From: Vicinamibacteraceae bacterium
Lineage (GTDB): Bacteria; Planctomycetota; Phycisphaerae; Phycisphaerales; UBA5793
Length of the DNA: 54,132 nucleotides
NCBI GenBank assembly: GCA_011525805.1
Contig: WYBR01000077.1
Span: 1 to 54,132 of the forward strand
Direction of reading: 5' to 3'
The first letter of the stretch is position 1. Each line of letters starts with the position of its first letter. Made by a program: the position numbers and the translations under genes. The notes under the pieces are model-generated. The model worked only from the letters and a program-made list of their open reading frames with translations. It had not been told where the DNA came from and ran no database searches. Shown here piece after piece: positions 46,109-49,238 of the stretch.

Positions 46109-47284
46109 TCACCTTAGCGCGGATTCAAGGTCGCGCCAGAGATCCTCGACGTTCTCGATGCCCACGCTCAGGCGGCAGAGATTGTCGTCGATTCCCAGCG
46201 CCTTGCGCTTGTCGGGCGGAACCGAGGCGTGCGTCATGATCGCCGGATGCTCGATGAGCGACTCGACCCCGCCGAGCGATTCAGCGAGCGAGAAGAGGTG
46301 CACGCGCTGGAGGAAGCGGCGCGAGTCGTTCAGGCCGCCCTTGAGCCAGATGGTGATCATCCCTCCGCCCGCCGGCTCGCCGCCGAGGCGCATCTGCTTC
46401 TGCGCCAGCGCGTGCTGCGGATGCGATTCAAGGCCCGGATAGACGATGCGCTCGACCCGCGGATGCGCTTCGAGGCGGGTGGCGATTTCGGCGGCGTTTC
46501 GGCAGTGCCGCTCCATGCGGATCGCCAGCGTCTTGATCCCGCGAAGCACGAGATACGAATCCATCGGACCGAGGATCGAGCCGATCGCGTTCTGCATGAA
46601 GCGCAGGCGCTCGGCGAGGTCGGGGCGGTTCGTGACGAGGATCCCCCCCACCGCGTCGCTGTGCCCGCCGAGGTACTTCGTCGCCGAGTGCATCGCGATG
46701 TCGAAGCCGAGTTCGAGCGGCCTCTGAAGAATCGGCGAGGCGAACGTGTTGTCGCACACCGTGATGAGGTTGTGCCGCCGGCCGATCGCGGCGACGGCCG
46801 CCAGATCGACGAGTTTGAGCGTCGGGTTCGTCGGCGTCTCGACCCAGATGAGTTTCGTGCGGTCGGTGATTGCGGCCTCGATGCGCTTCGGATCCGTCAT
46901 GTCCACGTAGGAAACCTTGAGACCCTGGCTGCGCTCGCGCACGCGCGTCATGAGCCGGTACGACCCGCCGTAGAGATCGTCCATGGCGATGACGTGCTCG
47001 CCCGAGTCGATGAGTTCGAGGCAGGTGGCCATCGAGGCGAGGCCGGAGGCGAATGCAAAGCCCCCGCCCGTGGCATCGCCGGCGACCTGCCCGCCCTCGA
47101 GCGAGGCGACGCAGCGCTCCAGTGCGTAGCGCGTGGGGTTGTGCGAGCGCGAGTACTCGAAGCCCTTGTGGACGCCGGGACTCTCCTGGACGTAGGTGCT
47201 CGAGAAACTGACGGGCGGCATGACGGCCCCGGTCGAAGACTCAGGCCGCTGCCCACCGTGGATGACTTTCGTTTCGAGGTTCAT
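46109..47284 (-). CDS. Cystathionine gamma-synthase/gamma-lyase-type PLP enzyme
   Basis: This 391-aa Cys/Met-metabolism PLP enzyme has YSRSHNPTRYALERCVASLEGG split over strand 1 and the phosphate-binding loop, AFASGLASMATCLELIDSGEHVIAMDDLYGGSYRL, the Asp/Tyr cofactor block VCDNTFASPILQRPL, and the PLP Lys in HSATKYLGGHSDAVGG. Both gamma-synthase and gamma-lyase share these. Because a cystathionine beta-synthase gene lies 0.6 kb upstream on the same strand, gamma-lyase (reverse transsulfuration, homocysteine to cysteine) is the likelier role. ATG 47284 has AAGGA upstream. Confidence 0.88.
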   Translation of the reverse strand: MNLETKVIHGGQRPESSTGAVMPPVSFSSTYVQESPGVHKGFEYSRSHNPTRYALERCVASLEGGQVAGDATGGGFAFASGLASMATCLELIDSGEHVIAMDDLYGGSYRLMTRVRERSQGLKVSYVDMTDPKRIEAAITDRTKLIWVETPTNPTLKLVDLAAVAAIGRRHNLITVCDNTFASPILQRPLELGFDIAMHSATKYLGGHSDAVGGILVTNRPDLAERLRFMQNAIGSILGPMDSYLVLRGIKTLAIRMERHCRNAAEIATRLEAHPRVERIVYPGLESHPQHALAQKQMRLGGEPAGGGMITIWLKGGLNDSRRFLQRVHLFSLAESLGGVESLIEHPAIMTHASVPPDKRKALGIDDNLCRLSVGIENVEDLWRDLESALR

Positions 47285-47312
47285 TTGTGTTCCTTGCAAT
47301 CGGATGCGATAG

Positions 47313-47353
47313 GTTCACCACAAAGGGCACGAAGGCACAAAGGGGGCACAAAG
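47313..47353 (+). repeat. Left 41-bp inverted repeat of GxxExxY cassette
   Basis: It begins GTTCACCACAAAGGGCACGA and continues with purine-rich AAGG/GGCAC blocks. It is 38 of 41 bases identical to the reverse complement of 47790-47830. It flanks the GxxExxY gene on the cystathionine-lyase side, 7 bp from that gene's stop. Confidence 0.85.
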
Positions 47354-47359
47354 AGCGGC

Positions 47360-47755
47360 TTAGAGAATCAGGCGGCGGATGCCTTCCTTAATACGGATGA
47401 CGTTGAAGTTGATAAGCAGAGCAAGCCGTAGACCGGTGATCCTCAGATACGTCAGCGTCTGGGCCTCGTGAATCGGGAGCAATGCTTCAACCGACTTCAG
47501 TTCGACAATGAGGTGGTTGTTGACGAGCACATCAGGTCGCAGGACCGTATCAAGCCGCTTGCCGTCATACACGATCGGCACCGGGTCCTGGACCGCAAAC
47601 GCGATGCCTGGCTTGCGAAGTTCGTGGCACAGGCAAGCCTCGTACACCCCCTCGATCAGTCCCGGGCCGAGTTTCCGGTGAACTGTCAGCGCGCAGTCCA
47701 CCACCTGCCGTGCCGACTCCTCCACCGCCGGGTCGAGCGGTTCGTACACGCTCAT
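47360..47755 (-). CDS. GxxExxY-family protein
   Basis: This 131-aa protein of the GxxExxY family has RKLGPGLIEGVYEACLCHEL carrying the motif, DPVPIVYDGKRLDTVLRPDVLVNNHLIVELKSVEAL split in the core (a PD-(D/E)xK-nuclease-like arrangement with Asp and ELK), and LRLALLINFNV near the C terminus. Such genes are frequent inside mobile or horizontally transferred segments. The 41-bp inverted repeats on each side, and its position between two genes of one pathway, support insertion as a unit. Nuclease activity is predicted from fold only. Confidence 0.87.
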   Translation of the reverse strand: MSVYEPLDPAVEESARQVVDCALTVHRKLGPGLIEGVYEACLCHELRKPGIAFAVQDPVPIVYDGKRLDTVLRPDVLVNNHLIVELKSVEALLPIHEAQTLTYLRITGLRLALLINFNVIRIKEGIRRLIL

Positions 47756-47789
47756 TGGTCCTTCTCCATGCTCATCCCACTTGATCTCC

Positions 47790-47830
47790 CTTCGTGCCCC
47801 CTTCGTGCCTTCGTGCTCTTTGTGGTGAAC
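47790..47830 (+). repeat. Right 41-bp inverted repeat of GxxExxY cassette
   Basis: It ends TTCGTGCTCTTTGTGGTGAAC. Its reverse complement matches the left repeat at 47313-47353 in 38 of 41 positions. It lies 34 bp before the start of the GxxExxY gene and 16 bp from the stop of the cystathionine beta-synthase gene. Confidence 0.85.
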
Positions 47831-47846
47831 GTTGGGCGTGGACCCG

Positions 47847-49238
47847 TCACGACTGCACCGACTGCCTTCTCAGGTAGGTCAGCAGGTCGATCTGGGTGAT
47901 CAGGCCGTAGTAGTTGTCCTTGTCCGCGATCAGCGCCACCTTGCTCGCGCGGAAGATCGGCACCAGTTCGCGCACGTTGGCGCTCGGCGGCAGCGTCTCA
48001 AGACGCGTCACCATGAACGCCTCGACCGGCCTCTTGAAGTTCGCAAAGTCAGTGTTCACTGCGAGCAGCAGGTCGGACTCGTCGATGATGCCGACGATCT
48101 TCCCCTCGCGGATCACCGGCACCTGGCTGATGCTGTAGAGTTTCATGCGCCCGTGGGCGACGGCGAGCGTATCGGTCGGCGAGACGGTGAAGTCCTCCTG
48201 GTCGAGGTGGCGGCGCTGGATGAGGTCGCGCAGATCGCCGTACTCCGGCCGCCGGATGAAGCCGTTCTCGATCATCCACGAATCCGAGAACATCTTGTTG
48301 AGGTACTTGTTGCCCGTGTCGCACACGAGGACGCAGACGCGCTGCGGCGTGGTCTGCTCGCGGCAGTACTTGAGCGCCCCGGCGAGAAGCGTGCCCGAAG
48401 AAGACCCCGCGAAGACGCCCTCCGTGCGCAGCAGGTGGCGCGCGGCATGAAACGCCTCCGCGTCCGTCACTTCATACGCGTGCGTCACCAGGTCGAGATC
48501 GAGGATCGAAGGCACGAAGTCTTCGCCGATGCCTTCAACGAGCCACGAGCCGGGCTCGATCATCTTGCCGGTGTTCACGAGCGGCGCGAGGACCGAACCT
48601 TTCGGGTCGGCGAGTACGATGCTTATCTTGGGATTGCGCTCTTTCAGGTATCGACCCGTGCCGGTGAGGGTGCCGCCGGAGCCCACGCCGAAGACCACGG
48701 CATCGACGTTGCCGCCCAACTGCTCCCAGATCTCCGGCCCGGTGGTCTCGTAGTGGGCCTGCGCGTTGGCGGGGTTGCCGAACTGATTGACGTAGAAGCC
48801 CCCCTCCTTTTCCGCGATGCGCTGGGCGAGGTCCTGGTAGTAGTCGGGATGCCCCTTGGCGACGTCGGAGCGGGTGAGCACGACCTGCGCCCCGAGGGCC
48901 TTGAGGTGGTCGATCTTCTCCTGACTCATCTTGTCGGGCATGACAACCTTGACGCGGTAGCCGCGAAGCGTGCCGATCATGGCCAGGGCGATGCCGGTGT
49001 TGCCCGCCGTGGCCTCGACGATCAGCCCGCCTGGCTTGAGCCGGCCGTCGCGCTCGGCGGCGTCGATCATGCTCCGCCCCATGCGGTCCTTGACGGAGCC
49101 GCCGGGGTTCATGAACTCGAGTTTGCCGAAGAGGCGGCAAGGCCCCGTATCGAGGCGGCGGAACTCGAGCATCGGCGTGTTGCCGATCATCTCAAGCACA
49201 TCGCTGTACACCGGCGCGCGAGGGGGTGTGGTGCTCAT
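47847..49238 (-). CDS. Cystathionine beta-synthase with CBS domain pair
   Basis: This 463-aa enzyme condenses serine (or acetylserine) with homocysteine, or acts as a cysteine synthase. The PLP domain (~1-320) has MIGNTPMLEF, the PLP Lys in NPGGSVKDRMGRS, EATAGNTGIALAMIG, GVGSGGTLTGTGRYLKE, and GVFAGSSSGTLLAGAL. The C-terminal CBS pair (~340-455; VSPTDTLAVAHGRMKLYSISQVPVI split, DESDLLLAV) senses adenosyl ligands. No haem-binding N-terminal extension is seen. ATG 49238 is clear. It is the first gene of the reverse transsulfuration pair, separated from it by the GxxExxY cassette. Confidence 0.92.
   Translation of the reverse strand: MSTTPPRAPVYSDVLEMIGNTPMLEFRRLDTGPCRLFGKLEFMNPGGSVKDRMGRSMIDAAERDGRLKPGGLIVEATAGNTGIALAMIGTLRGYRVKVVMPDKMSQEKIDHLKALGAQVVLTRSDVAKGHPDYYQDLAQRIAEKEGGFYVNQFGNPANAQAHYETTGPEIWEQLGGNVDAVVFGVGSGGTLTGTGRYLKERNPKISIVLADPKGSVLAPLVNTGKMIEPGSWLVEGIGEDFVPSILDLDLVTHAYEVTDAEAFHAARHLLRTEGVFAGSSSGTLLAGALKYCREQTTPQRVCVLVCDTGNKYLNKMFSDSWMIENGFIRRPEYGDLRDLIQRRHLDQEDFTVSPTDTLAVAHGRMKLYSISQVPVIREGKIVGIIDESDLLLAVNTDFANFKRPVEAFMVTRLETLPPSANVRELVPIFRASKVALIADKDNYYGLITQIDLLTYLRRQSVQS

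Follow-up and report, generated by a model that had tools for sequence, protein, structure and literature searches.

A GxxExxY gene between inverted tandem-repeat arms as a candidate REPIN/RAYT-like minimal mobile element

Introduction

Short inverted-repeat elements without a transposase, present in many copies and recognizable from empty sites, are known as MITEs and IS-derived non-autonomous elements. A lone small nuclease can also be the only gene of a mobile element, as in group I introns that encode a homing endonuclease of the PD-(D/E)XK fold. In the RAYT/REPIN systems, which are widespread in bacteria, a mostly single-copy gene is flanked by inverted repeats of lineage-specific flavour, many gene-less, hairpin-capable doublets are dispersed, and clustering and nesting occur (PMC3116915). 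S23 rRNA intervening sequences behave selfishly and consist of a small ORF whose flanking inverted arms pair into a long stem; that of Coxiella is reported to have tandem heptamers ahead of its reading frame and to be cut out by RNase III (PMC4990558).

The GxxExxY elements described below share the listed features of the RAYT/REPIN systems. They differ in encoding a putative PD-(D/E)XK nuclease, whereas RAYT is a Y1/HUH tyrosine transposase, in having arms of same-direction tandem 7-mers that pair only with the opposite arm, whereas REPs are short self-palindromes, and in being found in archaea too. The arm-gene-arm plan and selfish behaviour are common to the S23 sequences, but these encode an unrelated four-helix-bundle protein, keep a strict 7-nt period with other motifs, and have their named examples in rRNA. 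Like MITEs, the GxxExxY elements are short, lack a transposase, occur in many copies and have empty sites; however, no parent transposase with matching ends was seen in the arm pairs inspected, no target-site duplication was detected from the approximate element ends, and the autonomous-looking form encodes a putative nuclease. Unlike the homing endonucleases, they involve no intron, are bounded by inverted tandem-repeat arms and occupy many unrelated insertion sites.

The DNA analysed here (the window) is a stretch of 54,132 nucleotides that forms contig C58 in the draft genome G000 (4.54 Mb). An earlier note on this stretch had proposed a small mobile cassette without transposase. Copies of its arms and empty sites support this proposal, with the amendment that the GxxExxY protein itself may be the mover.

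Results

As the earlier note had described, 41-nt inverted repeats bracket a single GxxExxY gene between a cystathionine beta-synthase gene and a gamma-lyase-type gene. The left arm (47313–47353, forward strand) consists of tandem CACAAAG/CACGAAG units and is separated by 436 nt from the right arm (47790–47830, reverse strand), to which it is 93% complementary (38/41). The arm core motif occurs at only 2 places in the window, against a chance expectation of 0.05. Between the arms, the reverse strand encodes a 131-aa protein (47360–47755) that matches TIGR04256 (139.9 bits, cut-off 35, E 4.5e-41) and PF13366, PDDEXK_3 (137.8 bits, cut-off 22, E 2.6e-40). This PF13366 member is the sole ORF of the cassette, which contains no match to the Y1 tyrosine transposase family PF01797, and it does not belong to the S23 family PF05635. 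The flanking genes, outside the element, are cbs (47847–49238, reverse strand; PALP and CBS domains) and the cystathionine gamma-lyase/synthase-type gene cgl (46109–47284, reverse strand; Cys/Met PLP lyase), so that all three genes lie on one common strand. A long stem is predicted on the transcribed strand of the cassette (z −5.6). Searches of Rfam and of known phages returned no match.

In the AlphaFold model (pLDDT 96), the GxxExxY protein has a nuclease-like fold, in line with the PD-(D/E)XK-like cargo that had been proposed from the letters. In an alignment of 28 diverse members, the invariant positions are G32, E35, Y38, D75, E85, K87 and N116, while Q99 and Y103 are conserved in at least 90%; the PD-(D/E)XK site is thus complete and is accompanied by a QxxxY motif. 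The best Foldseek match is the Cas4 protein SSO0001 (E 0.0076; VIA Z 9.0 over 100 residues), followed at lower rank by Hjc, lambda-type exonucleases and restriction enzymes, and a sequence search of the PDB gave no significant match. The modelled fold is thus Cas4-like, which alone is no proof of function. Comparison of the window protein with its counterpart in the congener G003 yielded a dN/dS of 0.08, and close GxxExxY pairs gave 0.06–0.19; the active site is intact and under purifying selection.

A search of the same genome for other copies of the arms, as the earlier note had proposed, returned 42 matches to the arm core with at most 2 mismatches, compared to 1 for the reversed control. 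These include about 17 further inverted arm pairs, mostly gene-less and 140–310 bp long, and no recognizable transposase was present inside the pairs inspected. When 32 arm ends, belonging to 16 of these elements, were aligned, conserved columns extended for about 17 bases beyond each arm (outer consensus GTCGGACGCCAACGCT|CACCAC). At the window locus these extensions correspond to 47299–47315 (forward strand) and 47828–47844 (reverse strand), with approximate edges, which places the probable limits of the element near 47299 and 47844. A set of 16 elements showed no excess of target-site duplication at symmetric offsets, the element ends being approximate and the relatives too diverged, and the best asymmetric offset did not rise above the level expected from many tests; the duplications sought at the repeat ends were therefore not detectable. 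Exact boundaries were not obtained from empty sites either, because the intergenic DNA of congeners is too diverged.

Four CACAAAG-type elements of this genome (L003, L012, L017 and L025) enclose a nested inner inverted repeat (GCCGCAAAGAGGC..), which is the arm dialect of the GxxExxY gene L135 in the congener G004; it seems that one element can insert into the loop of another. The genome also holds a second GxxExxY gene (L001, C5:4531) with an arm dialect of its own, ACCACTGAGGCACCGAGGGCACTGAGG, unrelated to the arms in the window. Between genes for pyruvate dehydrogenase subunits lies a HepT-MntA-like toxin-antitoxin pair (L014:1493–2234, C6:14120 region) with a lone CACAAAG-type arm next to it; as only one arm is present at C6:14120 and its partner was not found, we do not claim the pair as cargo. 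Finally, a sequence of about 40 bp (…GGGTCGCGGCTAAACGGGCCGCCGTCGCTACGATT…) by a gene start in the right flank of element L023 (C99, about 51.38 kb) has dozens of matches in the congener G002 and several in other congeners, and represents another dispersed intergenic repeat.

Comparison of the cbs–cgl junction in relatives showed that not all of them carry the unit there. In G001, a member of the same genus, cbs and cgl overlap by ATGA with nothing between them. G003 carries the same cassette, with a protein 78% identical to the window copy, and G004 carries a different GxxExxY cassette, with a protein 50% identical and other arms (ACCACCAAGGCCCCAAGACACCAAG). In a tree that includes cross-phylum sequences, the G004 protein is not firmly grouped with the other two (support 0.59), so its cassette may have entered this junction independently. 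In most relatives of the order with a recognizable cgl, cbs and cgl are 80–160 bp apart. The junction is rearranged in G002 (L034), where a cbs protein 97% identical to that of the window is followed by another gene instead of cgl. Among the dispersed elements, L003, L012, L024 and L025 are absent from the orthologous sites in G002, and L023 is absent from those in G001, G003 and G004; L022, judged by flank spacing, is apparently occupied in all five species. Elements of this family are thus present at sites whose orthologs in congeners lack them, as expected of a mobile element. From these empty sites and the dispersed copies we infer that the unit is mobile.

To define how general the arrangement is, we scored inverted arms around 89 PF13366 loci from 61 genomes of the order, with a threshold of at least 28 (the maximum among cbs control genes was 26). 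Arms at or above threshold were found at 69/89 loci; with L089 added, they flank 70 of the 74 canonical GxxExxY genes and none of the 27 cbs controls. They are also absent from all 15 members of a divergent PF13366 subfamily (L136–L150; family f2), which serves as an internal negative control. This subfamily, with one longer open frame per genome, is probably a domesticated, vertically inherited relative. A cross-phylum scan of one-per-species genomes yielded more than 580 relatives. From these, 80 loci were kept and 3 viral ones were added; 81 of the total were scorable, and 69 of these beat all 100 of their own shuffles. Armed loci occur in more than 10 phyla, including planctomycetes, proteobacteria, Bacteroidota, Acidobacteria, Chloroflexi, Verrucomicrobia, cyanobacteria and, among archaea, Methanosarcinales. 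The upstream neighbour lies on the same strand as the GxxExxY gene at 75 of 80 callable loci and the downstream neighbour at 51 of 62, and plasmid examples sit between radA and a FAD-dependent gene and between fabD and fabG. This orientation bias suggests either read-through expression or targeting to gene ends.

The arms consist mostly of tandem degenerate CRCNRA(G/T) units 1–3 nt apart, with an autocorrelation peak at 8–9 nt, the period also seen in the window cassette. Two adjacent CRCNRAK units are present in 116/138 and 100/130 GxxExxY arms, and in fewer than one arm after shuffling. Arm 5-mer content, compared between different genomes, correlates with the protein tree (Mantel rho 0.35; 0/999 permutations), and so it does when the planctomycete set is compared against the cross-phylum set (rho 0.33, null maximum 0.22); L089 was left out of both comparisons. 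Arm similarity is 0.46 for nearest-protein pairs, 0.15 for random pairs and 0.12 for pairs from the same genome, and G025 contains seven GxxExxY genes with seven different dialects. The arm dialect follows the protein phylogeny, not the host genome. Close GxxExxY pairs have arms 83–100% identical despite a dS of 1–2, which, together with this tracking, argues that the arms are maintained in step with the protein and not with the host. Part of the co-divergence could be plain co-inheritance of a unit that something else moves.

We then related the number of dispersed copies to the presence of a cognate gene. The CGCCAAG-dialect sequence CGCCAAGNCGCCAAG occurs in 53, 45, 72, 95 and 48 copies in the five carrier genomes and in at most 9 in each of the other 56, save G022, which has 36 in the absence of a recognized cognate GxxExxY gene. 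For a second dialect, CRCAGATGNACRCAGAT, the outcome was predicted in advance: two of its three carriers are the top genomes, with 76 and 79 copies, and its sub-dialects match those of the carrier itself (CGC in G014, CAC in G030). The third carrier, G025, has only 5 copies, and G022 and G042 have 21 and 12. A third dialect, GACAGGATNNNCAGGATT, was uninformative, as it was searched with a spacing unlike that of the arms in the carriers themselves. Dispersed copies are most abundant mainly in genomes with the cognate GxxExxY gene, with exceptions, in two tests that shared ancestry inflates, since the high-copy genomes mostly belong to one family. Cognate gene-less inverted doublets, a feature of REPIN/RAYT systems, are accordingly found here apart from the exceptions G022 and G025. 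The G022 copies and the poor showing of the third CRCAGATGNACRCAGAT carrier count against self-mobilization, as do the lack of a target-site duplication signal and the single-copy state of the window's GxxExxY gene in its own genome, autonomous high copy number being rare. In addition, five intact small ORFs with no significant Pfam family (L316, L317, L323, L324 and L325) occur by themselves within pairs of CGCCAAG-type inverted arms, as though genes other than GxxExxY could be carried as well.

The same genomes contain S23 genes (23S_rRNA_IVP, PF05635; L270–L299, with L290 in the window's genome), of which 23/30 are flanked by inverted arms. These arms are mostly strict heptamer repeats of other sequence, with an autocorrelation of 0.60 at 7 and 14 nt, and the CRCNRAK pair is found in only 2 of 44. 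That two unrelated small proteins each have an arm class of their own speaks against a passenger system common to both, and suggests a general class in which one small gene lies between arms of tandem short repeats in a dialect of its own.

Discussion

With moderate confidence, we propose that the GxxExxY cassette is a minimal mobile element of the REPIN/RAYT-like type, and that the PD-(D/E)XK protein it encodes recognizes and mobilizes the arms of the cassette. According to this model, 47299–47844 would comprise a single Cas4/RecB-like nuclease gene between inverted arms, each made of about four tandem degenerate 7-mers (CRCNRA[G/T] plus 1–3 nt). The protein would bind the repeated units of its own arms, in its own dialect only, and would act as the mobilizing nuclease, the probable targets of its nicking or cutting being the arms themselves or a hairpin or cruciform made by them; this activity, and not a host or other enzyme, would drive movement and supply the transposition chemistry. 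It may serve its own copy and, in trans, the gene-less arm pairs, in the manner proposed for RAYT transposases and REPINs. Insertion would be mostly just downstream of a same-strand gene, so that GxxExxY is probably expressed by read-through. It is the co-divergence of arm sequence with the protein that points to the GxxExxY protein as the possible mover.

The arms could instead be part of non-autonomous elements that an unrelated transposase, or host recombination, moves in trans, with GxxExxY as cargo. We consider this unlikely, although it is the typical mode of MITEs, copies with a gene are far fewer than those without, CGCCAAG arms also enclose small ORFs that match no known family, and G022 has copies without a cognate gene. 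Because the dialect follows the protein across phyla and seven GxxExxY genes have seven dialects in G025 alone, such a mover would have to co-diverge with its passenger, and the S23 genes of the same genomes bear a different arm class. Nor do Y1/RAYT counts track arm copy number: G001 and G005 have 9 and 8 Y1 matches and 0 arm copies, and G057 combines 95 CGCCAAG matches with one 37-residue Y1 match. We therefore rejected RAYT/Y1 as the mover.

A third reading places the selfish behaviour at the level of RNA. As in the S23 intervening sequences, RNase III would cut the stem from transcripts, which would make insertion into an operon harmless; the element would spread by homologous exchange or through an RNA intermediate, and GxxExxY would act in maintenance or addiction and not in mobilization. 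The strong orientation bias with the upstream gene, the strong stem on the transcribed strand and the arm-gene-arm plan shared with S23 genes, down to the heptamers and RNase III excision reported for the Coxiella example (PMC4990558), would all fit. However, the nuclease fold indicates DNA chemistry, as do the conserved residues (D, E-x-K and Q/Y), gene-less copies lie at many intergenic sites, and both period and sequence differ between GxxExxY and S23 arms; we regard this reading as quite improbable. That the arms are ordinary regulatory or terminator hairpins beside an unrelated gene is very improbable even though inverted repeats are common between genes and the unit lies within an operon, given arms at 70/74 canonical GxxExxY genes against 0/15 and 0/27 in the divergent subfamily and cbs. 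The genomic copies, several of which are missing where congeners have the orthologous site, rule out a plain local hairpin or terminator, the latter a possibility that the earlier note had allowed for.

Returning to the nuclease-driven element, we found no description of GxxExxY as such an element in the open-licence literature searched, in which two papers mention GxxExxY by name and one PF13366, none of them dealing with elements; an earlier remark may exist elsewhere, and this widespread class of minimal mobile DNA is apparently undescribed. In architecture it varies a known theme, and movement driven by the nuclease alone would make it a new kind of element. A broader claim, which we advance only tentatively as a possibility, is that GxxExxY elements are a cross-domain autonomous class driven only by an approximately 130-aa Cas4-like nuclease that reads tandem 7-mer arms in lineage dialects, that they are the source of the dispersed CACAGAG-, CGCAGAT- and CGCCAAG-type repeats of many environmental genomes, and that they represent a categorically new form of DNA mobility. 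If the nuclease alone does mobilize them, these would be among the smallest autonomous mobile elements, run by a fold not known to carry out transposition by itself. In environmental genomes, GxxExxY is commonly met with as an annotation of the 'unknown' sort, and the CACAGAG, CGCAGAT and CGCCAAG arrays have hitherto had no named owner. A protein-specific repeat code, extending from planctomycetes to archaea, links the two and gives both a testable function.
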